From Tumebacillus sp. BK434 (lineage in GTDB: Bacteria; Bacillota; Bacilli; Tumebacillales; Tumebacillaceae): DNA of 64,000 nt. Made by a program: the position numbers and the translations under genes. Shown here one piece after another: positions 10,163-44,590 of this stretch. Location: NCBI RefSeq assembly GCF_004340785.1, contig NZ_SLXS01000001.1, positions 186,001 through 250,000 on the forward strand, in the 5' to 3' direction. Every line of letters starts with the position of its first letter. Within the stretch, counting starts at the first letter, position 1. The notes beneath the pieces are model-generated. The model saw nothing but the letters and a program-made list of their open reading frames with translations, searched no databases and was not told the DNA's origin.

Positions 10163-10168
10163 TGAAGC

Positions 10169-12006: not shown

Positions 12007-12050
12007 GCGGATGAGCGACCAGATCAAGCAAAACAGAGAGGATGGAACCC

Positions 12051-12452: not shown

Positions 12453-12478
12453 GCAACCGGAGGAAGGGAGGGGAGAGC

Positions 12479-15400: not shown

Positions 15401-15541
15401 AATCACGTCAAGAAGCTGTCCCTGACTGTGCACAAAGTGGAAGACCGCACCCGCACCGAATTGACGCTGGAGGAAGCGATCCGCATCCAGCACGGGATCG
15501 TGATCAACGGCAAACATCAGATCGAAATGGACCTGCTGTAA
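12479..15541 (+). CDS. Large J-like baseplate assembly protein 1
   Basis: A 1020-residue 'putative baseplate assembly protein' of the TIGR02243/gpJ-like group (Afp11-type), the main wedge component linking gp25 to the outer baseplate. It begins with ERTLQDLVARMKEMVPYYTPEW and SDPDAGAALFYMFAEM, the usual N-terminal helical arm. The gpJ core around residues 700-900 includes DDRHYLLDRSSGVLRFGDG, GKRGNVEAGRI and ITAQDYEWLARQAYHDIAKV. The ribosome binding site is GGAGGAAGGGAGGGG. It is longer than phage gpJ because of a beta-rich insertion (about 180-650). Its partner is the shorter paralogue that follows. Confidence 0.9.
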   Translation: MLPPRIDERTLQDLVARMKEMVPYYTPEWRFSPSDPDAGAALFYMFAEMYLQNVERLNRVPMKNLIAFLNLTGLAQLPASPATGYVTFTLSTGTPQPVLIPTGTALLAAAADGGDAIPFETAAPLLVTPARLVETWLTSTEQDRILRLTPSPEQPALLYDFSGGENLQSHSLYLGHRDLFTATQPAVIELDFYHSAARNLEKSYGEKLADPAALEWSYYGELGWEPFDVVSAKGNRLLLTKNKVRSIVLHELHGIENRWIRCRLKPQMLDKVTSAEQPLLIDALHVKTNYLDANREGGIAPELLFFNDIQVDPAACYPFGEHFAPFALFYVGSQEVFTKRDSVVTMTFRLQAVPHRLLPEEEQKIDWKMVMKESDFDKPKVHETSVLHVIWEYWNGNSWVRLFHHKEYEEIFYRPSEAGVDKVLQFTCPADMADTMVNGHQARWIRARVLQVENLYTNNPVYLSPKIENLRLQYSYFPDAGFPVESCLTQNNMEVADRTSQVWHGQTLFAPFAGLEGTYPAFYMGFDQAPRKGPIQMYFSMKGQPVSRSSELPLIEWEYLRYGPAGPEWAPLKTIDETLGFTRSGTVQFAGPTDFVKSNRFQSELYWIRALNRDGQFERKARAHGPRPHLAGIHLNTTKVIQQESVRREVPKKVHVSDTEAHFHLENRPVFSEEVWVDETGRLNELDLNALLEQDATATEVIRDSGGNILQLWVRYSAVEHFDQSAADDRHYLLDRSSGVLRFGDGVHGKALPNNGPEPVMVHYKKIAGKRGNVEAGRITQLQQSIAFVQEVSNPEPAGGGSDIEPLKATLQRGPQTVRHCDRAITAQDYEWLARQAYHDIAKVKCLPGYNARMERENGCITLAVLGSGGENGRPFFPQLKRKVEEYLAERSANTIAMATRITVIEPVYLEISIFAQLAVTSMDQIVPAELMAVQKLNRFLDPYTGNYDGKGWEIGQQIHASVFYGLLKAVPGVNHVKKLSLTVHKVEDRTRTELTLEEAIRIQHGIVINGKHQIEMDLL

Positions 15542-15572
15542 GGCAAAATTCGAAACAAAAGGTGGTGAGCCC

Positions 15573-17822: not shown

Positions 17823-17852
17823 AACAAGCGGGCGAAATGGAGGTGATTCCCG

Positions 17853-19958: not shown

Positions 19959-19982
19959 ACCGGGAGAAAAAGGAGTTTGGAG

Positions 19983-21677
19983 ATGCAAAAATCGCGATTT
20001 TATCCATTCGAACGCAATCGTTATTTTTACGGCAAACTGCTGACCGTTCGGGATTTCGAATCGGAGCAGACCTACTTTAACGACAAGCGCCGCCTGCTGA
20101 ACCGCCTTCTGTACGGCACCGGCGTGATCGCAGGCATGCAGGTCGTCAAAGTCGATGAGCGCTCATTTTCCCTGCAGGCGGGCGTGGCACTCGACCACCT
20201 CGGCCGCGAGATCGTCGTGCCGGAGCCGCAGACGTACAACTTGTCGGTCGTGCCGGGGTTTGTGAACAACGGCGAATACAGCAAGTACGTCTACCTCTGC
20301 ATCGCTTATGATGAAAAAGGCAAAGAGCCGGTCTTTTCTATCGCTAACACGACCGTACGGAAAGATGAGGTCAACGAATACAACCGCATGTTTGAAGGTT
20401 ACAAAGTGTTTGTTCGCGAGCAGGCGCCTGAGCTGTCAGCTTTCGAGCATCACAATCTGGCGCATACGACAAAAGAGGTGCTCGCCGCAGGCGGCATCCG
20501 TATCCTGCACCAAGTGCCGCGCTATGTGCAGGCGGGCAGCGTCTTCGAAGCGAAAGTCATCGTCGAAAAAGCGTTGCAGACTTCCGAGCTGCAACTGGAA
20601 TTCGAGCTGATGACTAAAGGCTGCGACGCGCAAAACGGCAACAAGCTGGCCTTCAAAGTGCAGGGGAAGAGCGAAACCCGCTCCGAGTTCACCTACCAGC
20701 TTCGCGCCCACGACACGCCGGGCCATGATGCGACGGTGGCGATTTTGCCGGAGGGGTCGATGCTTATGGTCGGCAACGAAGTGGTCAAAGTCAGCTCCGT
20801 CAGCATCCAAAACATCGAGCTGGCGGCGACTCCGGCCCGCGAGCGGATCCTGGACGAGTATTTTGCCCGCTCGCTCGACAAGGCATTGGAATCGGACAGC
20901 GATCCCTGCCTGTATCTGGCCAAGATCCACCTTCAGCAGGTCGGTGCGGTCTTCATGATCGACCGCATTGAAACGGTGCCCTTTGGCGACCACATCTACA
21001 ACCATTCGCTGCTGACCAACCTCGGTCTCGACAAGCAGCCGGCCTCTCCAGGGGCGATCGGCGGCGCGGCCGCCCCGAACTTCAGCGTGAACTCGGTGGC
21101 GGAACGCCTTCCGTCCGATGCCGATCCGAAGCTGGACGTGGCGTACGATCCGTCGAAGCAGGAATTCACCTTCACGCTCGGCGTTCCCGAAGGCAAGCCG
21201 GGGCAGGGCGGGGGCGGCACCACCGTCATCAACAAAGGCCATACGCCGAAAACGGCGGCGGGCATGACCGACATTCTGCTCTTCCCGAACCAGCGCTCCG
21301 GCAAGATCAACCCGTTTGGCAAAGCGGAGCGCACCTACTACTCGGATGAGATCGAACATGGCCTCGGGGTCGGGAACGTGTTTGTGCAGGCGGGGATCGA
21401 AGAGTGCGACTCCCTGCTCAACCAAGGCGATGCGGTGTATTACGGCGACCAGGATGTATTCACAGGCAGCGATCACGAGTCTTTCCTGCCGAAAACGAGC
21501 CTCGGCGTCCTCGTCTATCCGAAAAAAGGCACCTTCCGCATCGGATTGAAACTGCATGGCAGCACCGAGATGAGCAAACTGCGCGTCCGCTGGTGGGCGA
21601 TGCAAGATCCGGACGAACAGGCTGTCGCGCGCGGCCGTTATCAGTCGGAAGCGGCGTCTGCAGACGACGAATTCTAG
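19983..21677 (+). CDS. eCIS-locus baseplate appendage protein, function uncertain
   Basis: A 564-residue protein with an N-terminus recurrent in eCIS loci: FERNRYFYGKLLTVRDFESEQ, then YFNDKRRLLNRLLYGTGVIAG and an AGVALDHLGREIVVPEP turn. After a Gly/Pro-rich hinge (GVPEGKPGQGGGG, about residue 405) comes a beta-rich C-terminal domain (about 430-560) that could be a receptor-binding head. No enzyme motif is visible. ATG 19983 lies seven bases after AAGGAG and is preferred over TTG 19977. Its position at the end of the baseplate genes would suit a fibre or appendage; no other fibre gene is present in the window. This role is inference. Confidence 0.65.
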   Translation: MQKSRFYPFERNRYFYGKLLTVRDFESEQTYFNDKRRLLNRLLYGTGVIAGMQVVKVDERSFSLQAGVALDHLGREIVVPEPQTYNLSVVPGFVNNGEYSKYVYLCIAYDEKGKEPVFSIANTTVRKDEVNEYNRMFEGYKVFVREQAPELSAFEHHNLAHTTKEVLAAGGIRILHQVPRYVQAGSVFEAKVIVEKALQTSELQLEFELMTKGCDAQNGNKLAFKVQGKSETRSEFTYQLRAHDTPGHDATVAILPEGSMLMVGNEVVKVSSVSIQNIELAATPARERILDEYFARSLDKALESDSDPCLYLAKIHLQQVGAVFMIDRIETVPFGDHIYNHSLLTNLGLDKQPASPGAIGGAAAPNFSVNSVAERLPSDADPKLDVAYDPSKQEFTFTLGVPEGKPGQGGGGTTVINKGHTPKTAAGMTDILLFPNQRSGKINPFGKAERTYYSDEIEHGLGVGNVFVQAGIEECDSLLNQGDAVYYGDQDVFTGSDHESFLPKTSLGVLVYPKKGTFRIGLKLHGSTEMSKLRVRWWAMQDPDEQAVARGRYQSEAASADDEF

Positions 21678-21689
21678 GAGGAGATCCCA

Positions 21690-22445
21690 GTGGCCAGACA
21701 AATGAACCGAGGCGCCGCCTCGGCCAAAGCAACCACATCCTCAGTCAAACAAAAAAAGACTGCCAGCCAGGAGCAGTCCGCATCGCCTTTGCAAAACACG
21801 TTGCTGCAGATGCAGCGCGCCTATGGCAACCAAGCGACCAGCCGCTTCTTAAGCGGGCAGATCCAACGCAAAGCGGCCATCCAGCGCCTGCCGGAGGACG
21901 AAGAGGAGCTGCAGTTAAAAGCCGACCCGGCGCAGCGCATGCCTGAGGAAGAGGAGCTCCAGCTGAAAGCAGATCCCGCGCAGCGGATGCCGGGAGACGA
22001 AGAGGAGCTTCAGCTCAAGGCCGATCCGGCCCAGCGCATGCCCGACGAAGAGGAGCTGCAGCTGAAGGCGGCCGCCCCGGTGCAGCGCAAATCTGCAGCA
22101 TCGAACAAGATGCCGGAAGATGTGCAAGCCAAAATGGAGACGGCGATGAACGCCGACTTCTCCGACGTCAACATCCATGTCGGGAGCCAAGCGTCGGACG
22201 TCGGCGCGCTTGCCTACGCGCAAGGCAATGACATCCATTTCGCCCAAGGCAAATTCGATCCGCACAGCCAGTCCGGCCAAGAGCTGCTCGGCCATGAGCT
22301 GGCCCACGTCGTCCAGCAGCGCCAAGGACGCGTCCAGGCGACAACCTCCGTCGGCGGCCTGCCCGTCAACGACGATCCTTCCCTCGAACAGGAAGCGGAC
22401 AGCGTCGGCAAGCAGGCGGCGAGCCTCAAGCTTGAAGACAAATAA
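21690..22445 (+). CDS. DUF4157 (HExxH) eCIS-associated protein
   Basis: A 251-residue protein whose C-terminal half (about 137-235) is DUF4157, a metallopeptidase-like domain strongly linked to eCIS loci as cargo or cargo-processing factor. The motif HELAH is at residues 202-206, and a downstream Glu in LEQEAD is a possible third ligand. Residues 67-127 are four acidic repeats of the type (E)[15 protein letters not shown]. The N-terminal ~60 residues are basic and Gln-rich. There is no signal peptide or appended toxin domain, unlike many DUF4157 effectors. The start is GTG at 21690, set by AGGAGGAG; an ATG at 21702 is too far. It is the last gene before a terminator. Proteolytic activity is not demonstrated by the sequence. 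Confidence 0.85.
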
Positions 22446-32165: not shown

Positions 32166-33344
32166 ATGAGCCAACTGCTGGCACCGACCCACACTTATCA
32201 AGGCGAGATTCCTTTATGGATACGAATTCGGGAGCTTATGAAAGAAAAGGGGAGTTCTCACAGCATCACGGCTATGGCAGCACGGATCGGGGTCAGCAGG
32301 GAAACACTGCGTGTGATGTTAAACGGCGAACGGGAGATCTATTGGTTTGAACTGGAAAAGATTGCGCAAGATTTGAAAGTCCCGATCGCGCGTCTGCTGA
32401 TGGAAGATTTGAAGGAGCACCTGAGCCGGGATATGATCATAAAACATGTCGCCAACAATCAAATGGAAGCGGCGATGAAAATGGCCAATGAGTGGTTGGC
32501 GGTCTCCAACGGACTGTCTGAGAAAGCCCAGTGTTACAGTATCATCGCTTATATACATTTTTGGTCTGGCGAATACGAACTTGCCAAGTTCAGTTATTTG
32601 CAGATGCGGCCGATTGCGGAAGAAGTGTATGCGAAATATCAGTTTCAAGAGCTGTTGAGCGGTTGCTTGATCAACTTGTTGAACATCGCGGTGGAACTAC
32701 ATCAATATGAGCAGGTTCCAGAATTACTGGAAGCGACAGAGCCTTTTGTGAAGACTTCTCCTGTGAAAATGGGAATGTGGCACTATGCGAAAGGCAAATG
32801 GAAACTTTCGATTTATGAGCGGAAGCAGGCGAAAAACAGTTTTTATCAGTGTCTGGCGCAGATGAAACAGACCGATAACAATTTAGCGATCGGACGTTCC
32901 CTCACCCATCTCGGCCACGTGGAGTATGTGGATCGCAACTATGTAGAAGCAAAGGTGCTGTTGCTGGAGGCGATCGAAATCTCTGGCGAAGACCCGGGGT
33001 TGCGAGCGTCTGCGATCAAGGAGCTCGCCAAAACATTGATTAAGCTCAAAGAACTGCAGGCTGCAGAAGCGTTGATTCGCAACACGTTGCAGGAGGAATG
33101 GTTTGGGCAGTTCCCAGATCTGAAAGCTCGTTTGCTGATTCTGCTTTCCCGCGCTACGGGAGATTCCCGTCATGCAAAAGAGGTAGCGACCCATCGTGGG
33201 TATCAGATGCGGGCCCGCTTTCACGCTTACCGATACCTTGAACTTGAAAACTTGAGGCGGAGCAGACAGAGCAGCCAGGCAGTCGGGAAAAAAGCAAAGG
33301 GGAAACTGCCTAAACGGCAGATCCCGCTCGATCAGAACTTTTAA
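32166..33344 (+). CDS. XRE-HTH/TPR regulator paralogue 1
   Basis: 392 residues. An N-terminal helix-turn-helix (about 20-70; ITAMAARIGVSRETLRVMLNGERE) is followed by a helical repeat region of TPR type (about 85-330) and a basic tail (335-392, ending KLPKRQIPLDQNF). This layout recalls the RRNPP peptide-receptor regulators, in which the TPR domain binds a short peptide, but no cognate export-type peptide gene lies beside it. It has its own AAAGGAGG ribosome binding site and a promoter-like leader. It is the most diverged of the five copies in the array, especially in the tail. DNA or peptide ligands are unknown. Confidence 0.75.
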   Translation: MSQLLAPTHTYQGEIPLWIRIRELMKEKGSSHSITAMAARIGVSRETLRVMLNGEREIYWFELEKIAQDLKVPIARLLMEDLKEHLSRDMIIKHVANNQMEAAMKMANEWLAVSNGLSEKAQCYSIIAYIHFWSGEYELAKFSYLQMRPIAEEVYAKYQFQELLSGCLINLLNIAVELHQYEQVPELLEATEPFVKTSPVKMGMWHYAKGKWKLSIYERKQAKNSFYQCLAQMKQTDNNLAIGRSLTHLGHVEYVDRNYVEAKVLLLEAIEISGEDPGLRASAIKELAKTLIKLKELQAAEALIRNTLQEEWFGQFPDLKARLLILLSRATGDSRHAKEVATHRGYQMRARFHAYRYLELENLRRSRQSSQAVGKKAKGKLPKRQIPLDQNF

Positions 33345-33354
33345 GGGGAACATC

Positions 33355-33720
33355 ATGATCAAACTCGTAATACTGACGAATGCCGTTGTTGATAAGATAC
33401 CGCTTTGGCTGCGAATCCGGGAGATCATGAAGGAGCGGGGCAGTTCGTACAGCTTGACGGCCGTGTCAGCAAGGCTTGGGATCAGCCGCGAGACGCTGCG
33501 GCTGATGTTGAGCGGCGAGCGAGAGATCCACACCTTTGAATTGAAAACGATCGCAGAGGATCTCTAAATTTCACTTTAAAGGTTGTTGCAAGAGGCTCTG
33601 CTGCCAACTTCTAATAGGGAGTATTTAGGGAATTTCATGGCGAACAGAGAGTGGGAAGCGGCCATGAGGTTTGCAGAAGAATGGCAGGCGATCTTGATCG
33701 GTCTCACAGAAAGGCTTTCG
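33355..33720 (+). pseudogene. Decayed HTH/TPR regulator, 5' part
   Basis: Starts 10 bases after paralogue 1 with an intact HTH (LTAVSARLGISRETLRLMLSGERE). TAA stops at 33565 and 33577 then interrupt the frame. In the same frame, similarity to paralogue 1 resumes after the stops: LLQEALLP, then MANREWEAAMRFAEEWQAI matches NQMEAAMKMANEWLAV. It fades near 33720 into A-rich sequence. The 70-residue HTH piece could still be made and might act as a DNA-binding competitor. Confidence 0.8.
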
Positions 33721-33837
33721 TCGAAAAAAAAAGTTTGCCTATCTCTTTTTCTGGAAAAAAAACTAAGAACTTTGCAGAAAGTTAACAGAATAAAGAAAAA
33801 GACAGCTCGTACAACCTATATTTAATGGTGGGAAGTT

Positions 33838-34062
33838 TCGATTGATGCTGAACGGGGAGCGCGAGATTTACTACTATGTACACCAATTTGGTTTTGAACG
33901 GACGGTGGCTGGTACTTCCAAGTATCCGATAAATATGCGCTTCCTGACCTGGCACTTCTGTGCATTTATTATCGGCATTGGTTTATGCAAGGACGGAGCA
34001 TACGTGTGAAAGCAGTGCACAATTTGCCGAAGAGTAGTTTTGGGTATTACAAATATTTCTAG
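33838..34062 (+). pseudogene. Decayed HTH/TPR regulator, HTH end joined to C-terminal tail
   Basis: The end of an HTH (RLMLNGEREIY) runs almost directly into the family's C-terminal tail (VAGTSKYPINMRFL). A frameshift follows, and the rest of the tail (YYRHWFMQGRS ... VKAVHNLPKSSF ... YKYF) is read in another frame to the TAG at 34060-34062. The whole TPR region is missing. The gap from 33720 to 33838 and the stretch 34063-34232 show no coding features. Confidence 0.8.
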
Positions 34063-34232
34063 AAGGTGCAGCGAAGTAGGTTGGTGAACCACAAGGGGAT
34101 AAAAGGAAACGTGAACATTTTGCTTGTACATACAACACGAAATACATGTTACATCGATACGCAAAAGCCATGCTGAAGCTTTCTCTAAGGCAGATATTGT
34201 TAAATGATTAGATGGAAAGCGAGTGGATCAAC

Positions 34233-35402
34233 ATGAGTCAATTGCTTGCCCCGGCGCAAACGGTCGTGGATGGAATCCCACTATGGCGTAGAATTCGGGA
34301 GTTGATGAAGGAAAAGGGCTCCCGTTACAGCATATCTGCCGTTGCGATTCGGCTGGGGATCAGCCGTGAAACGCTGCGGCTGATGCTAAATGGCGAGCGT
34401 GAGATCTATTGGTTTGAGTTAGAAAGAATTTCTGAGGATCTGAAGCTGTCTGTGGCACGCATCTTGCAAGAGGACCAGGTTGAACTTTATGAGGAAATCA
34501 AAGCGCGAAAAGTGAGTCTGCTCGAATTGGACATGGCACTCGACGTTGCAAAAAGACGTTTTAACATGGCGCAAGGTCTGTCGGAGAAGGCGTATACATG
34601 GATCGATATTGGGTATTTTTATTTCCACAAAGAAGAGTATACAGATGCGAAACTGTGTTATATGGCCGCCGGCGATTTGATCGAGAAAATCGGATTTTCA
34701 GAGCAAGAGAATGAGTTGATGTATGCCGTACAGCGACGTCTTGTTGTAATCAATATATTTACAAAAGAAATTGCAACAGCGTTAAAGTTGCTGCGATCCA
34801 ACGAATCGCTTTTCATGAAAACAGTGATTCGCCAAGCTGATTATTTACATATGAATGCGCGATGTCAACTTAGATTAAGCGTTTTGGTTGAGACGAGAAA
34901 ATACCTGTTGCAAACGTTAGAAAAGCTGAAGGGAACCGGTCAAGAGGAATGGGTCGGCGTTGTTTATTCAGATCTTGGGTATGTTGAATACTTAGACCTA
35001 AACTATGAGAAAGCACACGAACTGATGAAATTGGCACTTCAGCATTTGCGGTTTGATGGAAGACGGCTGTTGGTAATCAAAGATTTGGTAAAAGTTCAGC
35101 TGAGACTAAACGAACTTCAGGTCGCGGAAGCACTGATTCGCAAAACCTTAGCAGGAGATAGGACAAATATGAGCAAGGAGATGGAAGCTCGCTTTCTCAT
35201 CCTATTGTCGCGCGTAAAGGGTGTGCCGTTTTACGCCGAAACTGTGGCCGGACATTCTAAGTATCCAACAAATGTGCGCTTTCTGGCCGGACGCTTTCTG
35301 CGAATTTTTTACCGCCGCTGGTTTTTACGGGGGAGAAGCAAACGGGTCACAGGGACATATCAATTGCCCCAAAGAAGATTTCCTTATGACAAGTATCTGT
35401 AA
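34233..35402 (+). CDS. XRE-HTH/TPR regulator paralogue 2
   Basis: 389 residues. The opening MSQLLAPAQTVVDGIPLWRR and HTH (ISAVAIRLGISRETLRLMLNG) are nearly identical to paralogues 3 and 4. The TPR-like region (about 85-325) is much more diverged, and the basic tail (SKYPTNVRFLAGRFLRIFYRRW) is again conserved. Conserved ends with a variable sensor middle suggest the same DNA or partner but different ligands. The ATG at 34233 matches the start of the sister genes, which share the upstream GTGGATCAAC. An ATG at 34212 is possible but lacks a site. No peptide gene is seen next to it. Confidence 0.78.
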   Translation: MSQLLAPAQTVVDGIPLWRRIRELMKEKGSRYSISAVAIRLGISRETLRLMLNGEREIYWFELERISEDLKLSVARILQEDQVELYEEIKARKVSLLELDMALDVAKRRFNMAQGLSEKAYTWIDIGYFYFHKEEYTDAKLCYMAAGDLIEKIGFSEQENELMYAVQRRLVVINIFTKEIATALKLLRSNESLFMKTVIRQADYLHMNARCQLRLSVLVETRKYLLQTLEKLKGTGQEEWVGVVYSDLGYVEYLDLNYEKAHELMKLALQHLRFDGRRLLVIKDLVKVQLRLNELQVAEALIRKTLAGDRTNMSKEMEARFLILLSRVKGVPFYAETVAGHSKYPTNVRFLAGRFLRIFYRRWFLRGRSKRVTGTYQLPQRRFPYDKYL

Positions 35403-35430
35403 ATGAACAGATCGAAGGTGAGTGTGGAAC

Positions 35431-36600
35431 ATGAATCGATTGCTTGCGCCAACGCAAACGGTTGTAGACGGAATTCCGCTTTTCCGTAGAGTGCGGGAGC
35501 TGATGAAGGAAAAGGGCTCTCGTTACAGCATTTCAGCCGTTGCTGTTCGGCTCGGGATCAGCCGGGAAACGCTGCGTCTGATGCTAAATGGCGAGCGTGA
35601 ATTCTATTGGTTTGAATTGGAGAAGGTCGCCGATGACCTTAAAATACCAATAGAACGCATTTTGCAAGAGGATGTTGCAGCTCTTCATGCTGAAATTAAA
35701 GCACGCAAAAACAATCTTCAGCAATTGGATAAAGCAATTGAATTGGCACACCAGCGATTTGCTCAGGCGCAAGGTGCGTCGGAAAAGGCAAGTGCTCTAC
35801 TAGATATCGGGTATTTGCTTTTTTTCAGCGATCGGTTTCAAGAGGCAGAAGAGACATTGCTTACCGCCAATCATTTGATCCAAAGTATTGTTTTGCTTCC
35901 GGCAGATGATCGATTAATATTCAGTGTTTTGGTTAACTTCTCAGCGGTATATATTTACTCCAAACAGTACCCAAAAGCTCGTCTTGCTTTAGAATCTTTG
36001 CGAAAAATATCCATGTCGTCACCGCAGCGCGAATCAGATTATCATCACTTATATGCAATGTATAAACAGGCTTTGAACGAGCTTGCAGAGGCAAAAGAGT
36101 CATTATACAAGACAATTGAACTGCTGCAAGGGCAGGAGCGTGAAGAAACACTTGGACGCGCTTTGTGTGATGTTGCTTACATCGAATACGCAGATTTGAA
36201 CTACAGGGCTGCTAAAGATATGCTCCGACGGTCACTGCAACATTTGCAGTCGAGCAGCTTTCGGCTAATGACGATCAAAGATATGGTCAAAGTTCACATA
36301 AAATTGCAGGAACATCGTGAAGCAGAGCGCTTGATTCGCCAAACCTTGCAAGGGGAAGAGATCAAAAGCAATCGGGAAATGGAAGCGAGGCTGCTCATTT
36401 TGCTGTCACGGGTACAAGGCGTGCCATATCATGCTGAAGCTGTGGCCGGCAATTCGAAGTACCCGAAAAACGTCCGCTTCCTGGCTGGTCGCTTTCTGCG
36501 CATTTTTTACCGACGTTGGTTTATGCAAGGGCGGAGCAAATGTGTGAAAGCTGTACATAAAATGCCACGCAGAAGTTTTCCCTATGATAAGTATTTTTAA
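35431..36600 (+). CDS. XRE-HTH/TPR regulator paralogue 3
   Basis: 389 residues with the array's shared HTH, a diverged TPR-like middle and the conserved basic tail (FLAGRFLRIFYRRWFMQGRS). ATG 35431 lies eight bases after AAGGTGAG, the best ribosome binding site of the array; GTG 35422 overlaps that site. The 28-base gap to paralogue 2 has no room for a promoter, so the copies are probably co-transcribed or read from promoters within the preceding gene. The middle region differs enough from paralogues 2 and 4 to suggest old duplication followed by divergence of the sensor. Confidence 0.78.
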   Translation: MNRLLAPTQTVVDGIPLFRRVRELMKEKGSRYSISAVAVRLGISRETLRLMLNGEREFYWFELEKVADDLKIPIERILQEDVAALHAEIKARKNNLQQLDKAIELAHQRFAQAQGASEKASALLDIGYLLFFSDRFQEAEETLLTANHLIQSIVLLPADDRLIFSVLVNFSAVYIYSKQYPKARLALESLRKISMSSPQRESDYHHLYAMYKQALNELAEAKESLYKTIELLQGQEREETLGRALCDVAYIEYADLNYRAAKDMLRRSLQHLQSSSFRLMTIKDMVKVHIKLQEHREAERLIRQTLQGEEIKSNREMEARLLILLSRVQGVPYHAEAVAGNSKYPKNVRFLAGRFLRIFYRRWFMQGRSKCVKAVHKMPRRSFPYDKYF

Positions 36601-36629
36601 CTCGATCGATCGAAAGTGAGTGGATCAAC

Positions 36630-37799
36630 ATGAGTCAATTGCTTGCCCCGGCACAAACGGTCGTGGATAGAATCCCGCTTTGGCGCAGGATTCGGGAGTT
36701 GATGAAAGAAAAGGGTTCACGATACAGTATGACTGCAGTTGCGAACCGACTCGGGATCAGTCGGGAGACGCTGCGCCTGATGCTCAATGGCGAACGGGAA
36801 ATTTTTATGTTTGAGCTGGAGAAGATCGCCAATGACCTTAAATTGCCACTGGCACGAATTCTCCAACATGATATTCAGGACCTGCACGAACAGCTTCAGG
36901 AAAAGAAAGACAATCTGCAGGACATGGATTTGGCCATGGAGTTGGCGAAACAGCGATATACGATAGCTCAGGGCTTGTCAGAGAAGGCATATGCACTTCT
37001 CGATATCAGGTATTTGTATGCCTTCCAAGATAAATGGACCGAAGCGGAAGAAGTATCTTTGACCGCCCAGGAGTTGATCCTGCAGATTGGACTTACGGAG
37101 CAAGAGGATGAGGTGCTATTTAGGTTGCAGAATCATCTTGTAACAATCTATCAGTTTACGAAACGATATGAGAAAGCACTTGAAGTTCTGAAATCAATGA
37201 AGCAACTCAACAGGGATTTACCAGTACGAATAGCAGCCTTTCATCACAATATGGGAATCTGTCTGCATGGGCTTAATAAGGTCGAGGAAGCGAAAGAGAG
37301 TTTTCACAAAGCCTTAGAACTGCTTCAAGACTTAGACAGGCAAGAATGGATTGGACGGGTATATTTTTGTTATGCCTATCTCGAGTACTGCGAGATGAAC
37401 TACCACAGGTCAAAGGAGCTGATAAATAAAGCTCTGCAACATTTGAAGACCGAAGTCATGCGTATAGGGGCTGTTAGAGATCTTGCCAAAGTCCTGCTGA
37501 AACTACGCGATCACCAGGCTGCAGAAGCCCTGATTCTTGAAACGTTGCAAAGTGAAGCAATCGAACAGAATTCTGAGATGGAGGGGCGTCTTTTGATCCT
37601 CCTGTCGAAGACGCGCGACCTGCCCTACCACGCAGAAGCGGTGGCAGGCAATTACAAGTATGCCAAAAACATTCGCTTCCTTGCTGCCAAGTTTTTACGT
37701 CTCTACTATCGGCGCTGGTTCATGCAGGGACGTCGCAAACGCGTAAAAGCGGTAGGAAAATTGCCGCGCAGACGCTTCCCGTACGATAAATTCCTGTAA
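36630..37799 (+). CDS. XRE-HTH/TPR regulator paralogue 4
   Basis: 389 residues. HTH (MTAVANRLGISRETLRLMLNG), TPR-like helices (about 85-325, with YLEYCEMNYHRSKELINKAL-type units) and the basic tail (KLPRRRFPYDKFL). The 50 bases around its start are almost identical to those of paralogue 2, which shows that the array grew by tandem duplication. It ends the AT-rich array. A T9 run at 37821-37829 lies downstream without a clear stem. The ligand and target are unknown. Confidence 0.78.
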   Translation: MSQLLAPAQTVVDRIPLWRRIRELMKEKGSRYSMTAVANRLGISRETLRLMLNGEREIFMFELEKIANDLKLPLARILQHDIQDLHEQLQEKKDNLQDMDLAMELAKQRYTIAQGLSEKAYALLDIRYLYAFQDKWTEAEEVSLTAQELILQIGLTEQEDEVLFRLQNHLVTIYQFTKRYEKALEVLKSMKQLNRDLPVRIAAFHHNMGICLHGLNKVEEAKESFHKALELLQDLDRQEWIGRVYFCYAYLEYCEMNYHRSKELINKALQHLKTEVMRIGAVRDLAKVLLKLRDHQAAEALILETLQSEAIEQNSEMEGRLLILLSKTRDLPYHAEAVAGNYKYAKNIRFLAAKFLRLYYRRWFMQGRRKRVKAVGKLPRRRFPYDKFL

Positions 37800-37919
37800 A
37801 TTGTCAGATAACTTCTGCCGTTTTTTTTTCCTGCAACCACATCGGCTGTAAATATATCAAAGGTTGTCAGAACTTGTTACAATGTGTTCAAGAAACACAT
37901 CGCAAGGAGGAACTCACCA

Positions 37920-39185
37920 ATGATGACAACCTTAGGACAACGCATTCGCGAATTGCGGATCAAAAAAGGACAGACGCAGATCGGACTGGCAGACGGGATT
38001 TGCACACCGAGCATGATTTCACAGATAGAAGCGGACCGCACCACCCCTTCGTATAAGATATTGTTTGGCATCGCAGAGAAGCTCGGCGTACCGCTCGACT
38101 TCCTGCTGAAAGACATCGAACTGGATCTGGCCGACATCACCAAATACAAAATGGCCAAAGGCCTCGTCCGGGCAAAAGAATACGGCTTGGCGATCAACCA
38201 GTTGCAGGAGCTGCTCGACAGCACCGACCAGCAGATTCCGAAGATGGATGTGCAAGTCGAGCTGGCCTTCTGCCTGCTGGAAGTCGGACGGGCATCGGAA
38301 GCGATGACCTTCCTGCATGAGGTGCAGGGACTGGCGATTCTGCGTCAGGACGGGGAGCTTTTGGCGAAAGTGTTCTACCATCTGGGGTTGGATGCACTTA
38401 AAAAGATCGAATATTCAATCTCTTTGTACCACACGGAGCGTGCTCACGAGGAATTGCAGAAGATCGCGTTGCCTGACCCGGCTTTGCAAGCGAAAGTGCT
38501 GGTGCAGCTGGCGGAGATTCAGGAGCGGATCGGACAGGTGAGCAAGGCGGCGGAGAGCTGGGAATCGGCGCTGCAACTGGTCGAGAATACGGAGCGCGGC
38601 AAAACGATGCTCAAGCTGGCCGACGCGTTTTATCGCCAGAAGAACTATCTGAAAGCGGACGAGTACGCGACGAAAGCGGCGATTCTGCTGGAGGAGGAGG
38701 AAAATTCGCGCCAGAATCAGGAGTGGAAACGCAAAGCGGTGCTGCTGAAGCGCGAAGCTGACTGGCAAGCGTCCGTGCAGGAACTGCTGGAGCTGAGCGC
38801 TGCCTGTGACGGGGCGAAGGCCGGCGAGATTTTTGCCGACATCGCGACGATCCTGCTGGAGAACGGCGAGGCGGAGCAGGCGGTGGCGTATGCGGAGCGG
38901 GCGCGGATGATCTTGCCGGAGCTGCATCCGGTGATGGGCAAGGTACACCAGCTGTTTGCTCTGCTCTACTTCCAGCGGGGCCAGGAGCAAAAAGGCCAGT
39001 CTCATCTTGACCGCGCCCTCGCATTGTTCGAGAAGCACGGCATGTCTGCAGAGCTGGAAGACGGCACGCGCAAGCTCTGCCGCCTGCTCCACGCTCAAGG
39101 CAAGCACGAAGAGGCTGCCCGCCGCTGGGAACTGCTGCACGACTTCCTGATCGGCAATTTGCAAAAGCGCGGCATCGCCCTGTAA
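37920..39185 (+). CDS. Classical XRE-HTH/TPR transcriptional regulator
   Basis: 421 residues. A standard Cro/C1-type HTH occupies residues 1-65 (GQRIRELRIKKGQTQIGLADGICTPSMISQIEADRTTPS, read as successive helices), followed by TPR repeats to the end. It is of the PlcR/Rgg/NprR-like general plan but is not a copy of the array upstream: the HTH type, tail and GC content differ. The strong AAGGAGG lies nine bases before ATG 37920; a longer frame from 37884 has no site. It forms its own unit and is closed by the terminator at 39286. A phage-repressor role is unlikely given the TPR domain. Its ligand is unknown. Confidence 0.82.
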   Translation: MMTTLGQRIRELRIKKGQTQIGLADGICTPSMISQIEADRTTPSYKILFGIAEKLGVPLDFLLKDIELDLADITKYKMAKGLVRAKEYGLAINQLQELLDSTDQQIPKMDVQVELAFCLLEVGRASEAMTFLHEVQGLAILRQDGELLAKVFYHLGLDALKKIEYSISLYHTERAHEELQKIALPDPALQAKVLVQLAEIQERIGQVSKAAESWESALQLVENTERGKTMLKLADAFYRQKNYLKADEYATKAAILLEEEENSRQNQEWKRKAVLLKREADWQASVQELLELSAACDGAKAGEIFADIATILLENGEAEQAVAYAERARMILPELHPVMGKVHQLFALLYFQRGQEQKGQSHLDRALALFEKHGMSAELEDGTRKLCRLLHAQGKHEEAARRWELLHDFLIGNLQKRGIAL

Positions 39186-39346: not shown

Positions 39347-39970
39347 TTAATTGGGCGCCTGGGCGACCGGCTTCCAGTCCGGGATGTGAGTTTCGCAAAG
39401 ACTGCGGGCTTCGGCGATCACTTGCTCCGGGGTTTTGCCGGTCGTGTTCAGCTCGACAAAACTGCCGTCCCAGCTCATCACTTCGCGCAGCGCCGCTTCG
39501 AAGTTCAGCGTGTATTCGAGAGAATTGACGACCCGCATGTCGGTTGCCTTCAGCTCATGAACGCGCGCCAGCAGGCGGCTCCGCAATTCCTCATGATCAG
39601 CGGTCAGCAAAATCGAAAGCTGCGGTGTCAGCATGCGCTTGCGGATCGGCAGAAACGCCTCTTTGACCACCGACAGCGGGGTGCCGGTGTTCAGCGAGTA
39701 GATCGCCATATAGGTCGCAAAGTAGCGGTGGCAGATCACCGGCCCAGTTTGCAAGGATTTCTGCACTTTGCCAGATGTGTAGACACAGGAAGCAAAATAG
39801 TATAGCAAGCGGGAGTCATCATCCGCATCTTCATCAACAAAATCGCGGAAATCGCGCCACTCCGGCGACATTCCTTTATAGAAGGCAGCGTTTTGTTCCT
39901 GCTCCAGCGCTGCGCAGACGGTGCTTTTCCCGGTGCCGTCGACACCTTCAATCACCAAAAACGGATTCAC
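39347..39970 (-). CDS. Thymidylate kinase-like P-loop kinase
   Basis: 207 residues of the dTMP-kinase/deoxynucleoside-kinase fold. The P-loop GVDGTGKST is at residues 9-17, and helices after it match that fold. A basic ARVHELKATDMRV region could be the lid. The usual D-R-(Y/H) acceptor-binding motif reads HRY (ICHRYFAT), so the substrate may not be dTMP. It lies 43 bases downstream of the PEP mutase gene on the same strand, so the two probably work together, perhaps on a small phosphorylated metabolite. A housekeeping tmk is normally found elsewhere in Bacillota genomes. Confidence 0.75.
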   Translation of the reverse strand: MNPFLVIEGVDGTGKSTVCAALEQEQNAAFYKGMSPEWRDFRDFVDEDADDDSRLLYYFASCVYTSGKVQKSLQTGPVICHRYFATYMAIYSLNTGTPLSVVKEAFLPIRKRMLTPQLSILLTADHEELRSRLLARVHELKATDMRVVNSLEYTLNFEAALREVMSWDGSFVELNTTGKTPEQVIAEARSLCETHIPDWKPVAQAPN

Positions 39971-40013: not shown

Positions 40014-40895
40014 TTAGCGGACTTCCAGCTTTTTGTAGCGCTCTTCCTGCTTGATCATCTCTTTCAAGCCTTGCAGCTCAAACAGTTGATCCATCGGGCT
40101 CAGCTGCTCTTGAATCGCCAGCAGTGATCCGGTCGCTTTCAACTCCGCGAGTACGGCATCCATCGCTTTCACAGCCGCCCGCAGCGCCTGGTTGGCGTAG
40201 ATGGCCATCTTGATGTTGTGCGCTGCCATGTCGTCCAGCGTGATGCTTGGGTAGGTGGTCGGCACGATGACAAGGGGCGTATCGGACGACCAGCGGCGGC
40301 TGAATTCGAAGATCTCGCCGGGGTCCTTTTGCTTGGAGTGAATCAGCACCATGTCGGCTCCCGCCTCATCATAAGCGGCTGCCCGATCCAGAGCTTCTGC
40401 CATTCCTTTGCCGGCGATCAGCGCTTCGACGCGGGCGATCACCACAAAGTCAGGGTCTTGCTGCGTGTCTTTCGCCGCGCGAATCTTGGCGGCAAATTCG
40501 TCGCGCGGGGCGAGGGACTGGTAGCCCGGAATGAAGGAATTCATCTTTGGAAACACCTTATCTTCTATACAGACGGCGGCGACCCCGGCTTTTTCATAAT
40601 CGCGCACCATGCGAATGACATTGTTCACATTGCCGAATCCGGTGTCGCAATCGGCGATCACCGGCAGCGTCGTGGCATCGACCATCTGCGCGGCCGCCTG
40701 AAGGAATTCCACCATGGTCAAGATGTTGGCGTCCGGCTTGGCGTGGGCGGTTGAGATTTCAAATCCGCTGGCCCATACGGCATCAAATCCATGCTGTTCT
40801 ACCAACTTGGCTCCCAATGCGTTATGCGCCCCTACGGTTTGGATTACACGCTCCGGCTCCTGCATCATCTTGCGCAACTGTTGTCTCGCGTTCAT
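40014..40895 (-). CDS. pepM: Phosphoenolpyruvate mutase (PEP mutase/ICL superfamily)
   Basis: 293 residues. It carries the PEP-mutase signature EDKxxxxxNS exactly (E111-D112-K113 ... N119-S120), plus the metal-binding ADCDTGFG block (81-88) and the superfamily start VGAHNALGAKLVEQHGFDAVW. PEP mutase makes phosphonopyruvate and so forms the C-P bond of natural phosphonates. The reaction is unfavourable unless pulled by a next enzyme, usually phosphonopyruvate decarboxylase, which is not in the window. The ribosome binding site AGAGGTGGG precedes the ATG. A phosphonopyruvate hydrolase role is possible because the two share motifs. It diverges from the peptide operon. Confidence 0.82.
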   Translation of the reverse strand: MNARQQLRKMMQEPERVIQTVGAHNALGAKLVEQHGFDAVWASGFEISTAHAKPDANILTMVEFLQAAAQMVDATTLPVIADCDTGFGNVNNVIRMVRDYEKAGVAAVCIEDKVFPKMNSFIPGYQSLAPRDEFAAKIRAAKDTQQDPDFVVIARVEALIAGKGMAEALDRAAAYDEAGADMVLIHSKQKDPGEIFEFSRRWSSDTPLVIVPTTYPSITLDDMAAHNIKMAIYANQALRAAVKAMDAVLAELKATGSLLAIQEQLSPMDQLFELQGLKEMIKQEERYKKLEVR

Positions 40896-40988: not shown

Positions 40989-41016
40989 TTGATTATTTTC
41001 TGATTATTTATATAAT
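40989..41016 (+). promoter_or_regulatory. Sigma-A-type promoter of peptide operon
   Basis: TTGATT (40989-40994) and a perfect TATAAT (41011-41016) are separated by 16 bases in AT-rich DNA, about 82 bases before the first peptide start. It is the best promoter-like sequence in the window. Confidence 0.65.
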
Positions 41017-41023
41017 AGAGTAA

Positions 41024-41066
41024 ACGGAAAATTTTTTCAAGGCAGTGTAATTGCTAAATTTTCCGT
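41024..41066 (+). promoter_or_regulatory. 5' leader inverted repeat
   Basis: Perfect 11-bp arms ACGGAAAATTT (41024-41034) and AAATTTTCCGT (41056-41066) flank a 21-base loop in the transcribed leader, 14 bases before the first ribosome binding site. It could be an RNA hairpin or a DNA operator just downstream of the promoter. Confidence 0.55.
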
Positions 41067-41098
41067 CCCAAATTAAATATAAGGGGAGGTGCTCAAGC

Positions 41099-41191
41099 AT
41101 GATCCGTAACCGCAAACTCGATCCGGTCCAGTTCATCGACGTTCGTGGCGTTGCTGTCACGTTGCCGGAGTTCATCGACGTACGCAAGTAA
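41099..41191 (+). CDS. Short motif peptide 1 (30 aa)
   Basis: A 30-residue peptide with ribosome binding site GGGGAGGTG eight bases before ATG. It begins MIRNRKLDPVQFIDVRG and ends LPEFIDVRK, so the FIDVR motif occurs twice, 15 residues apart. It has no cysteine, no signal peptide and no hydrophobic stretch. It is the first of seven paralogous small cistrons transcribed from the promoter at 40989. Conservation across the seven copies, including the ribosome binding site, is the reason to accept so short a gene. The product's role is unknown; a ribosomal peptide precursor, signal or ligand peptide is possible. Confidence 0.75.
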   Translation: MIRNRKLDPVQFIDVRGVAVTLPEFIDVRK

Positions 41192-41236
41192 CTCATCACG
41201 CTTGTCATCTCTCATATAGAAAGGAGGTGCCCTTTC

Positions 41237-41329
41237 ATGCGTAACCGTGTAGCTGATCCGGTACAATTCGTTGACGTCCGCAGCCTCGTGATGACTCGTC
41301 CGGAGTTCATCGATGTCCGCGGCCTGTAA
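41237..41329 (+). CDS. Short motif peptide 2 (30 aa)
   Basis: 30 residues: MRNRVADPVQFVDVRS, then LVMTRPEFIDVRGL. The two copies of the motif read FVDVR and FIDVR. It follows peptide 1 by 45 bases and has the ribosome binding site AAGGAGGTG. It is closest to peptide 1 (shared M-x-N-R and DPVQF) and differs from the later copies, which begin MERN or MERK. The Gly-Leu ending is unique in the set. Confidence 0.75.
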   Translation: MRNRVADPVQFVDVRSLVMTRPEFIDVRGL

Positions 41330-41372
41330 GCGGTCAAAGGGTACACCCATTACGGGAGAGGAGGTGCACCTC

Positions 41373-41462
41373 ATGCAACGTTGGCAACCGCCTGTCGAGT
41401 ACATCGACATTCGCAAAGAGTACTGGCAAGAACCGGTACTGTTCATCGACGTCCGCAAATAA
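41373..41462 (+). CDS. Short motif peptide 3 (29 aa)
   Basis: 29 residues: MQRWQPPVEYIDIRKEYW, then QEPVLFIDVRK. It carries two tryptophans and a second Tyr, making it the most aromatic member. The motifs read YIDIR and FIDVR and are each preceded by a proline three residues upstream. The ribosome binding site is GAGGAGGTG, 43 bases after the stop of peptide 2. Confidence 0.75.
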   Translation: MQRWQPPVEYIDIRKEYWQEPVLFIDVRK

Positions 41463-41518
41463 GCGGCTTCTGTCTTCCCCGCATGTTTCATTCTCACTCA
41501 GCAAGGGAGGTGCTCTCA

Positions 41519-41617
41519 ATGGAGCGCAATCTTTGGACCGACATCCCGTACTTTACCGACATCCGTAAAGGCGAAGTCATGGAGCCGGTTGAATTCATCG
41601 ACATCCGCAAGAAGTAA
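41519..41617 (+). CDS. Short motif peptide 4 (32 aa)
   Basis: 32 residues: MERNLWTDIPYFTDIRKGE, then VMEPVEFIDIRKK. The motifs read FTDIR and FIDIR. It has the ribosome binding site AAGGGAGGTG. From here on, every copy begins MER(N/K)L, which separates this later subgroup (peptides 4-7) from peptides 1-3. Confidence 0.75.
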   Translation: MERNLWTDIPYFTDIRKGEVMEPVEFIDIRKK

Positions 41618-41661
41618 CTCTTGCTTGCATCTTGCATCCTGACGCACAGGTGGTGTAGATC

Positions 41662-41715
41662 ATGGAGCGCAATCTGCATATGGAAATCCCGGGTTTCATC
41701 GACATCCGCAAGTAA
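41662..41715 (+). CDS. Short motif peptide 5, single-motif form (17 aa)
   Basis: Only 17 residues: MERNLHMEIPGFIDIRK. It has one motif instead of two, yet keeps the start, the ribosome binding site (CAGGTGGTG, the weakest of the set) and the place in the operon. It shows what the minimal unit is: a short N-terminal piece, a proline and F-I-D-I-R-K. It may be a truncated copy or a functional short form. Confidence 0.65.
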   Translation: MERNLHMEIPGFIDIRK

Positions 41716-41755
41716 TAAAAGGTAAGTTGAACTACCAGGAAAGGAGGTGCACAAT

Positions 41756-41854
41756 ATGGAGCGCAAACTCGTTATGGAACTGCCGAACTTCACCGACATC
41801 CGTCGTGAATTCTTCCCCCACCCGGTTGAATACGTTGACATCCGCAAGAAATAA
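41756..41854 (+). CDS. Short motif peptide 6 (32 aa)
   Basis: 32 residues: MERKLVMELPNFTDIRRE, then FFPHPVEYVDIRKK. The motifs read FTDIR and YVDIR. Ribosome binding site AAAGGAGGTGCACAA, identical to that of peptide 7, pointing to a recent duplication of the pair. Confidence 0.75.
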   Translation: MERKLVMELPNFTDIRREFFPHPVEYVDIRKK

Positions 41855-41891
41855 ATGATGACCTGAACGAACGAGAAAGGAGGTGCACAAC

Positions 41892-41987
41892 ATGGAGCGC
41901 AACCTGCATATGGAACTGCCGTACTTCACCGACATCCGTCGCGGCCTCGTTATGGAACAGCCGAACTTCGTAGACGTTCGCAAATAG
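41892..41987 (+). CDS. Short motif peptide 7 (31 aa)
   Basis: 31 residues: MERNLHMELPYFTDIRRG, then LVMEQPNFVDVRK. The motifs read FTDIR and FVDVR. It is the last small cistron, 78 bases before the nucleotidyltransferase gene, from which it is separated by the 26-base palindrome. Confidence 0.75.
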   Translation: MERNLHMELPYFTDIRRGLVMEQPNFVDVRK

Positions 41988-42004
41988 TACTTCTGCTACA
42001 TCAT

Positions 42005-42030
42005 GAAAGGAGAGGAATTCCTCTCCTTTC
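42005..42030 (+). terminator. Hairpin attenuator between peptides and enzyme gene
   Basis: A perfect 26-base palindrome (11-bp stem, AATT loop, arms GAAAGGAGAGG/CCTCTCCTTTC) lies after the last peptide. The following TCTCCTGATTTT is only weakly T-rich, so partial termination is likely, which would give many peptide transcripts per enzyme transcript. Confidence 0.55.
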
Positions 42031-42065
42031 TCCTGATTTTCAGAGAGACAAAGGAGTGAACCACT

Positions 42066-43340
42066 GTGCAAGAACAGTTGCTTCCGTTTCTGTATCGACT
42101 GGCCCTGACCCCTGATAAAAAAGACGAAAGCCTCATCCGGGACTACAAGCGCATGCAGGATGAACTCAAGAAGATTGCGAATGAAAACAAGATGCTGGTG
42201 CCGATTTTGCAGCTCGAAGAAACGATGGGGCTGCACAACGAGTTTACGGAGCGGGTACGGATTCGTGCGGCGCAAGATGCGCTTTTTGCGGAAGTGGCGA
42301 AGATACTGAATGAGAACGGTGTGACTTACATTCACATCAAAGGCAACGCGATGAAGAATCTGTATCCGGAGAACTGCTTCCGCCAGATGGGCGACTATGA
42401 TATGGTCGTGTCAAGCATCGATGAGTTCTGGAGATTGATCACGTTGATTGAGACGCTCGGATTCGACTATCAGAACGCGCCGTCGATCGGTGAGTTTAAC
42501 GGAGAAGTGGTCGGGGTTGCCGGGTTTTACAAGAAGATCGATGAGACCTGCATGCTGGAGCTGGAAGTCAGCGTCGGTTCGTTTACCATGGGCTTTACGA
42601 GCTGGTTGACCGGAGATTTTTGGGGCGAAGCGCGGACGACCGAGGTAAATGGCGTCCCGGTGCCGATTCCGTCGGCCGAAGATATGATCTTGATTCTGAC
42701 CGGCGAATCGGTGGGCAACAACATCTTCCGCCTGCGCGATGCGGTCGATCTGCATCTGCAGTTGCAAGCGCCGGACCTTGATTTTGAAAAATTGCATACT
42801 CGCTTGAAACGTCATCATCTGGATATGGAATTTTATCTCTTGGTGCAGTATTATGAGCAGGTTTCCGGACAGAAATCAAACATCCCCGGCTTTATGCTTG
42901 AGGGTTTCTCCAATAGATTGTTCAGCAAGCAAAGCTTGTTCGGCAAGCAAAGCGAATTGCGTAAGAAGCTCTACCATTACATCCCGTACAACGCGGATCA
43001 TGACGGCTTGTTTAAAGCTCTGTTGCTGGAAGTCCTCAACGTCTACCGCAACAAGCTGACCTTTTGGACGGTTCGGCGTAAAAACTTGAAGCTGGTGCGC
43101 ACCCTGGAAAAAGTGTTCCCGCCGTTTGCCCGCTACAAACTGCGCATTCTGGCCCATCTGATCCCCGTTCCGAGCGGCACGCCGGGCGCGTACGCCTGGA
43201 TTCGCCTGCGCGGCAAGATGGTCGTTCGCACCCCGATCGGCTGGTATGTGGCGAGCTGCTTCGGGCTGGAGACGCGCGAGGAGCTGTTGGAAATCGATGC
43301 AACGATCGCGGAGCACTGCGCGACCTATAGCGGGGAGTGA
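42066..43340 (+). CDS. Nucleotidyltransferase-family protein (NTP_transf_5-like)
   Basis: 424 residues. It resembles the nucleotidyltransferase_5 (PF14907-like) family: a helical start, then a KGNAMKNLYPENCFRQMGDYDMVV block whose D110-x-D112 pair is the expected metal site, then a second part with SAEDMILILTGES and a helical C-terminus. Members occur in several ribosomal peptide clusters, including lasso peptide ones, with roles mostly unproven. It could nucleotidylate a peptide or a small molecule. The start is GTG 42066, seven bases after AAAGGAG. It lies directly after the seven peptides and overlaps or abuts the MFS gene. Family call is fairly confident; activity is not known. Confidence 0.75.
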   Translation: MQEQLLPFLYRLALTPDKKDESLIRDYKRMQDELKKIANENKMLVPILQLEETMGLHNEFTERVRIRAAQDALFAEVAKILNENGVTYIHIKGNAMKNLYPENCFRQMGDYDMVVSSIDEFWRLITLIETLGFDYQNAPSIGEFNGEVVGVAGFYKKIDETCMLELEVSVGSFTMGFTSWLTGDFWGEARTTEVNGVPVPIPSAEDMILILTGESVGNNIFRLRDAVDLHLQLQAPDLDFEKLHTRLKRHHLDMEFYLLVQYYEQVSGQKSNIPGFMLEGFSNRLFSKQSLFGKQSELRKKLYHYIPYNADHDGLFKALLLEVLNVYRNKLTFWTVRRKNLKLVRTLEKVFPPFARYKLRILAHLIPVPSGTPGAYAWIRLRGKMVVRTPIGWYVASCFGLETREELLEIDATIAEHCATYSGE

Positions 43341-43345
43341 GGCCA

Positions 43346-44590
43346 GTGAGCACGCCGCTTGCCGGAGCGACGCCGGCAGCAAAACCCAAGTCGCTGTGGC
43401 GCAACCGCCAGTTTTTGTACCTCTGGGTCGGCACACTGTTTTCCGGGCTGACTTTTCACATCTACACGTTGGGTCTGCCGCTGATGATCTATGATCTGTC
43501 ACACTCGACGCTGGCGATGAGCTCGATGGCGGTGATGAACATGCTGCCGTATGTGCTGTTTGGCATGTTGGCCGGCGTGATCGTCGACCGCCTCGACCGC
43601 AAGCGGGTGATGCTGACCGCCGTGGCGATGCAGGTGGCGATCCTGCTGCTCCTGTTCACGCTGCTCTCGACCGGAGTGGCGCACGTCTGGGTGCTGTATG
43701 TGCTGGGCTTTTGTCTGACCACGTTTGGTTATCTGTTTTCCAACGCGTCGACGAGCATCGTGCCCTTGTTGATGGAGCGTGAGCAGTATGTGTCGGCCAA
43801 CGCTACGATCAATTTCTGGGGCACGGTGATCTCTTCGCTCGGTCCGGCCATCGCCGGGAGCATGCTGGTGGTGATGAACTACCGCTATGGGATCTTGATC
43901 ACCGTCGGCGGTTTCCTGATGCTCTTTTTCTTCACGTCGCTGATGAAGGTGCCGGTCGCAGAGAAGCCAAAAGAGCTGTCGGAGCGCAAGACGACGATTC
44001 GCGAGGAGATGAAGGAAGGCTGGCAGCAACTGCTGTTGACCCGCGAGCTGTTCATGATCACGATCCTCGTCCTGGCGGTGAATTTTGTGACTTCGTTTGC
44101 TGGGGCGGTCATCGTCTTTTATGCGCTCGACAAGCTGCATCTGGCCTCCAGTTCGCTGGGGCTGGTCTTGTCGGCGTCTGCGCTTGGCAGCCTCAGCTCG
44201 ACATTTGTCGCGAAGCCGAGCTTGAAGTGGGGACGGCGCGGCAAACTGCTGGTCGGCGCAGTGCTGACGGCGGCGCTTGGGCAGTCGGTGCTGTTTTTCT
44301 CGTCGCATTGGCTGGTCTTAGCGGCCGGGCTGTTCATTTTGGGCGCTTCGTCGACCTTCTCGAACGTTCACATCCACACGATTCGACAGGAAGTTACGCC
44401 CAACCACATGCTGGGCAGGGTGGCGGGCACCACGTCGATGCTGGCCCGGGTGGCTGCGCCGATCGGGCTGTTCCTCGGCGGGCTGTGCGGGGAATACATC
44501 GAGGTGCACTATATTTTCCTGACCGCAGCGCTGATGTATTTGAGCCTTGCGTTGCTCTCGATGAAAAATAAATTGCAGGATATCGTGTAA
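43346..44590 (+). CDS. MFS-type exporter
   Basis: 414 residues with about 12 membrane segments and the MFS loop motif GVIVDRLDRKRVM between segments 2 and 3. It resembles the drug/macrolide-efflux MFS branch common in Bacillota. GTG 43346 is preferred over the GTG at 43337, which overlaps the upstream stop. It ends the peptide operon and is closed by a terminator, so export of the operon's product or self-protection is the natural guess. MFS carriers move small molecules, so a processed or very short product is more likely than a full 30-residue peptide. Confidence 0.85.
   Translation: MSTPLAGATPAAKPKSLWRNRQFLYLWVGTLFSGLTFHIYTLGLPLMIYDLSHSTLAMSSMAVMNMLPYVLFGMLAGVIVDRLDRKRVMLTAVAMQVAILLLLFTLLSTGVAHVWVLYVLGFCLTTFGYLFSNASTSIVPLLMEREQYVSANATINFWGTVISSLGPAIAGSMLVVMNYRYGILITVGGFLMLFFFTSLMKVPVAEKPKELSERKTTIREEMKEGWQQLLLTRELFMITILVLAVNFVTSFAGAVIVFYALDKLHLASSSLGLVLSASALGSLSSTFVAKPSLKWGRRGKLLVGAVLTAALGQSVLFFSSHWLVLAAGLFILGASSTFSNVHIHTIRQEVTPNHMLGRVAGTTSMLARVAAPIGLFLGGLCGEYIEVHYIFLTAALMYLSLALLSMKNKLQDIV

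Follow-up and report, generated by a model that had tools for sequence, protein, structure and literature searches.

For microcin C, a peptide suffices along with one nucleotidyltransferase and an exporter, which in E. coli is an MFS protein (PMC9239234). A nucleotidyltransferase from a lasso peptide cluster, PsmN, also works on a ribosomal peptide: it is needed to attach hexoses to a phosphorylated Ser of pseudomycoidin (PMC9266682). Daptide clusters carry several paralogous short precursors each, and nucleotidyltransferases have been reported as their accessory enzymes (PMC10036551).

Here we describe a locus of Tumebacillus, a genus of soil bacteria; it resembles each of these systems in part. 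It lies within a stretch of 64,000 nucleotides (the window), in which an array of short ORFs precedes genes for a nucleotidyltransferase (NTase) and an MFS exporter. We propose, with a probability of roughly 0.5, that the array encodes the precursors of an undescribed, genus-restricted RiPP-like product that would be tailored by the NTase and exported by the MFS protein. The features of the locus are as follows:

39347..39970, reverse strand: kinase of dTMP/deoxynucleoside-kinase-like type (207 aa), whose gene follows that of the PEP mutase on the same strand
40014..40895, reverse strand: phosphoenolpyruvate mutase (PepM), divergent from the peptide operon
40989..41016, forward strand: promoter TTGATT-16-TATAAT, an identical 28-mer in three species
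41024..41066, forward strand: 5' leader hairpin ACGGAAAATTT...AAATTTTCCGT, most stem bases shared by three species
41099..41191, forward strand: peptide 1, 30 aa, MIRNRKLDPVQFIDVRGVAVTLPEFIDVRK; T. avium orthologue at L008:12324-12416
41237..41329, forward strand: peptide 2, 30 aa, MRNRVADPVQFVDVRSLVMTRPEFIDVRGL; T. avium orthologue at L008:12461-12553
41373..41462, forward strand: peptide 3, 29 aa, MQRWQPPVEYIDIRKEYWQEPVLFIDVRK; orthologues in T. avium and the third species
41519..41617, forward strand: peptide 4, 32 aa, MERNLWTDIPYFTDIRKGEVMEPVEFIDIRKK; orthologue in T. avium
41662..41715, forward strand: peptide 5, 17 aa, MERNLHMEIPGFIDIRK; one motif, weak ribosome binding site (RBS), no T. 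avium counterpart
41756..41854, forward strand: peptide 6, 32 aa, MERKLVMELPNFTDIRREFFPHPVEYVDIRKK; its partner is T. avium peptide 5
41892..41987, forward strand: peptide 7, 31 aa, MERNLHMELPYFTDIRRGLVMEQPNFVDVRK; orthologues in T. avium and the third species
42005..42030, forward strand: attenuator- or terminator-like hairpin with an 11-bp stem, between the peptides and the enzyme genes
42066..43340, forward strand: NTP_transf_5 (PF14907) nucleotidyltransferase, 424 aa, GTG start
43337..44590, forward strand: MFS exporter (MFS_1/MFS_3), Pfam MFS_1 at 119 bits
44589..44618, forward strand: intrinsic terminator that closes the unit

The operon shares with microcin C (MccA-MccB-MccC) the logic of a short peptide gene, a nucleotidyltransferase and an exporter gene, the last being an MFS gene that presumably serves peptide export, yet it is not a member of that class. 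Its enzyme belongs to PF14907 rather than to the ThiF-like MccB type (no ThiF match among the scanned genes), its peptides lack a C-terminal Asn, there are six or seven mostly two-unit peptides in place of one, and no immunity gene was recognised at the locus. PF14907 enzymes also occur in lasso-type, paeninodin-like clusters of Bacilli. However, the Asn-synthase-like cyclase, B1, B2 and the PqqD protein are absent from the scanned genes (9.5-57 kb), the peptides have no C-terminal Ser, and the NTase is a divergent branch; since neither cyclase nor B1 or B2 was found among those genes, we take the product not to be a lasso peptide. Multiple paralogous short precursors recall daptides, but no daptide-type oxidative enzyme, aminotransferase or RRE protein lies beside the array, and the peptides do not end in Thr. 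The Pfam scan covered window genes at 9.5 to about 11.3 kb, about 15.5 to 32.2 kb and 35.4 to 57 kb; it returned no radical SAM, YcaO, lanthipeptide or lasso enzyme, in agreement with the original prediction, which had found none nearby and knew of no described family with this signature. Family profiles, PDB and literature likewise gave no such family, PDB holds no relatives of the peptides that we could find, a literature search for the motif returned nothing relevant, and Rfam had no match at the locus. Elsewhere in the window, contractile-injection-system-like genes (tube protein, baseplate J, P2-I tail, eCIS core domain) occupy 9530-22445.

The array spans 41099-41987 and comprises seven short ORFs of 17-32 aa with 13 copies of the motif P-x(1-3)-[FY]-x-D-[IV]-R, two per peptide and one in the 17-aa peptide 5. 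All seven RBS-preceded short ORFs bear the motif. In 500 dinucleotide shuffles of the region, RBS-preceded short ORFs numbered 0.064 on average (maximum 2) and none bore it, so that the seven consecutive cistrons with one or two motif copies each, as originally predicted, lie beyond chance. The common start M-E-R-N or M-x-R-x that had been claimed for them holds in part: M-E-R-[NK] opens peptides 4-7, while peptides 1-3 begin with MIRN, MRN and MQR. At their C-termini the peptides carry K, KK or GL; Ser is nearly absent from them and Thr is scarce and not conserved. They have neither a signal sequence nor a hydrophobic N-terminus, and their GRAVY is about 0 or below. The anti-Shine-Dalgarno sequence at the 16S 3' end served for scoring ribosome binding sites, and six of the seven ORFs are preceded, 6-7 nt upstream of the ATG, by 7-12 contiguous complementary bases. 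Each ORF thus has its own Shine-Dalgarno sequence, as proposed, although the type in these six is (A)GGAGGTG rather than GGTG and that of peptide 5 is the sole weak one (ACAGGTGGTG). Peptide 5 is possibly decaying.

The closest named record to the window is T. avium NZ_CP021434.1, whose NTase is 90% identical. Six related peptides occupy the same site there (L008:12324-13124), and six more are found at the same site in a third Tumebacillus species (G002, L009), in which the closest counterpart of peptide 2 is MFRNRVAQPVEFVDIRSIAITMPEFIEIRK. In comparison with T. avium, the orthologous peptides show a dN/dS of 0.36, with synonymous changes in excess at P = 7e-4; in comparison with the third species, the values are 0.29 and P = 2e-6. 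The spacers between the ORFs tolerate gaps across species. We conclude from these sequence comparisons that the peptide ORFs are real translated genes under purifying selection. A lack of other genomes with the array, or frames broken in close relatives, had been named as grounds for dropping the idea; both relatives keep six peptides. A purely RNA-level element in place of peptides was also considered and is ruled out by the synonymous excess. Copy number varies while the motif stays, as seen from three nearly identical recent copies in the third species and from the one peptide of our genome that is missing in T. avium.

A profile built from 18 peptides (A1) reached E-values down to 7e-20 in the three Tumebacillus genomes and gave no convincing match outside the genus in mutually overlapping samples of 299 phylum, 14 order and 399 class genomes, about 700 in all. 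Matches in other genera at E 0.005-0.05 were partial, mostly within longer frames, and were taken as chance. The array is missing from all four sister-genus genomes, and the PF14907 loci of other Bacilli that we read hold no similar short-ORF array; among everything searched, it is confined to Tumebacillus. Recurrence beside NTP_transf_5 genes, a proposed check, is seen in three Tumebacillus genomes but not across Bacillota (about 700 genomes). The pattern exists at genus level only, where functional linkage and the shared ancestry of three congeners look alike. The sister genus and a further family of the order have kept the right flank, with its DUF7408 protein and ABC transporter; the stretches read there lack the array-region genes.

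The order peptides, NTase, MFS gene and terminator is conserved in three species. An 11-bp direct repeat (TGATTATTT twice) spans the first hexamer and spacer of the promoter, of which the window contains no second copy (20-mer core, up to 3 mismatches). The leader at 41020-41100 folds at -19.4 kcal/mol (z -2.9), and the region 41985-42060, with the hairpin that follows the last peptide ORF after 17 nt, at -26.6 kcal/mol (z -2.8); this second hairpin is kept in three species with a variable loop. The NTase stop and the MFS start overlap by 4 nt, and the terminator, a hairpin followed by a T-run, lies at the same position in three species with a varied stem sequence. The nucleotidyltransferase-fold gene, the exporter and the good promoter of the original prediction are hence all in place, and the peptides, NTase and MFS gene apparently form one closed transcription unit, from which the peptides would be produced in excess over enzyme and exporter.

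The NTase scores 74.5 bits to PF14907 (gathering cut-off 31.2). Alignment with PF14907 members of other Bacilli showed that K92-G93, R106, D110-x-D112 and E167 are kept and that the His-Trp of the family's ExHW, after the third carboxylate, is lost. With KG, DxD and the third acidic residue retained and His-Trp missing, the enzyme is probably active but on a separate branch, and its closest relatives outside the genus are about 25% identical. In one sister-genus genome, genes for a distant NTase (27%) and a related MFS protein (33%) lie about 9 kb apart, and such peptides are missing. No relatives were found on plasmids or phages; the only PDB match was judged chance, and an AlphaFold model built from two sequences had a pLDDT of 34 and hence was unused. 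Several PF14907 genes of other Bacilli adjoin PqqD-like, lasso B1-like genes (PF05402), one (L115) lies near an ORF that resembles, by eye, a paeninodin-type precursor, and some occur beside polysaccharide-type genes too. By gene context, PF14907 can be regarded as a RiPP-associated family. In T. avium, another PF14907 gene lies in a cluster (L011:1145-15386) that also encodes an NDK-domain protein, two aminotransferase-like proteins, a methyltransferase and an M16 peptidase, as well as exporter-like proteins. The closest NCBIfam models of the MFS protein, TIGR00900 and EntS, are both under cut-off, and its identity in the two relatives is 94% and 83%.

In the mechanism that we propose, abundant precursors would come from six or seven peptide genes that share a single strong promoter and mostly have a strong RBS, and the conserved hairpin after the last of these genes would reduce read-through into the enzyme and exporter genes. 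The PF14907 NTase may recognise the P-x-[FY]-x-D-[IV]-R unit, of which most peptides contain two, and transfer a nucleotidyl or sugar-phosphate-type group onto it. The dearth of Ser and of conserved Thr leaves Asp, Arg, Lys and Tyr as candidate acceptors, and the MFS protein would export the product. As for a RiPP, the selection on the ORFs points to a ribosomally made precursor; its modification is presumed. Among the three readings originally offered, we favour a ribosomal peptide class: PF14907 has a RiPP context, one genetic study deals with a lasso-cluster nucleotidyltransferase, and gene order and hairpins suit precursor, enzyme and exporter. In its favour we counted purifying selection, copy gain and loss in three species, strong RBS, the conserved promoter, hairpin, terminator and NTase carboxylates, PF14907 genes in lasso contexts, the role of PsmN in pseudomycoidin tailoring, and the small gene set with which microcin C is made. 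Against it stand the low NTase identity outside the genus, the lost His-Trp and PF14907 genes near polysaccharide-type genes. Moreover, the peptides show no leader/core split, and the scanned genes include no RRE, protease or primary RiPP enzyme.

Small ligands and multi-copy signals, the two other original candidates, stay as rivals. A short linear motif repeated with variable spacers in peptides without a leader would suit intracellular ligands that bind and regulate the NTase or another protein via the DIR strand, with the MFS protein exporting an unrelated small molecule, and NTase and MFS alone could make a small-molecule or resistance operon. We consider this unlikely, as six or seven copies with strong translation point to a product made in bulk and the other long frames of the window lack the full motif. 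As unmodified signal peptides, the members of the array would serve as a family of ligands for the HTH-TPR (RRNPP-like) regulators encoded in tandem at 32166-39185; synteny is conserved, regulators and peptides are both expanded by paralogy, and one regulator weakly matches the AimR model, below cut-off. HTH-TPR regulators near the array do recall RRNPP cassettes, but the peptides have no signal sequence, no receptor gene lies immediately upstream of them, the receptor-like genes being 2-9 kb away behind two genes (PepM and the kinase), and an enzyme and an MFS gene come after. The counts also differ, with four, three and two regulators of the paralogous type against seven, six and six peptides, and the NTase is left unexplained, making a signalling role quite unlikely. 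Four of these regulator paralogues stand in tandem at 32166-37799, where the gap 33345-34211 holds a decayed one, and copy number varies in relatives; HTH-TPR paralogues were located at 32.2-35.4 kb by tblastn. Finally, the last ORF stops so close to the conserved 42005 hairpin that the short ORFs might merely regulate read-through there, which we hold to be highly improbable, since attenuation needs neither seven ORFs with mostly strong RBS nor selection at the amino-acid level.

A more specific version of the ribosomal peptide class draws in the divergent PEP mutase and kinase: a phosphonopyruvate-derived phosphonate would be activated by the NTase, joined to the DIR units as a phosphonate or nucleotidyl-phosphonate, and released by the MFS protein. 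PepM passes the TIGR02320 equivalog cut-off (321.2 bits against 319.55), contains the motif EDKx(5)NS as EDKVFPKMNS, has PEP phosphomutase 5unc as its closest solved chain, and exceeds the cut-off in just one further genome among 14 of the order. The kinase matches Pfam Thymidylate_kin and PADLOC VakA (62 bits) and is limited to the three Tumebacillus genomes (14 order and 399 class genomes searched). PepM keeps an identical position in three species, and the kinase adjoins it and the array in all of them; this adjacency is weak evidence of a link to the peptides, as in three congeners it may be inherited synteny only, and the kinase would belong to the unit only if PepM does. A phosphonate pathway in the organism is plausible, given that a split phosphonopyruvate-decarboxylase-like pair, an AA-kinase, a second dTMPK-like kinase and a hydroxyisobutyrate-dehydrogenase-like protein are encoded, with an MFS protein, on the same contig. 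This phosphonate-cluster-like set (L090:4561-10729; about 752.5-758.7 kb of C1) is about 530 kb from the array, however, and may serve another product. The close grouping of PEP mutase, kinase and MFS genes recalls phosphonate clusters, from which the locus differs by its ribosomal peptide array and PF14907 enzyme and by the decarboxylase-like pair lying elsewhere in the genome. PepM is moreover on a separate divergent transcript, and in the papers searched for RiPP and PEP mutase combinations nothing relevant, and no phosphonate-bearing ribosomal peptide, turned up. We regard the phosphonate version as decidedly unlikely. The third Tumebacillus species has a second PEP mutase in another cluster (L091:8345-9283), with neighbours that by eye are dehydrogenase-like and phosphoglycerate-kinase-like. 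The kinase is related to the viperin-associated kinase VakA, and its homologues stand beside viperin genes on Nostoc and Anabaena plasmids.

If the NTase modifies the peptides, the Tumebacillus operon would count as a minimal system for peptide modification that has none of the usual RiPP marker enzymes, and would offer a direct route to the role of the uncharacterised PF14907 enzyme family. RiPP mining by cyclase, radical SAM, YcaO or RRE domain would overlook such an operon, and the PEP mutase next door raises the testable question of phosphonate-bearing ribosomal peptides.
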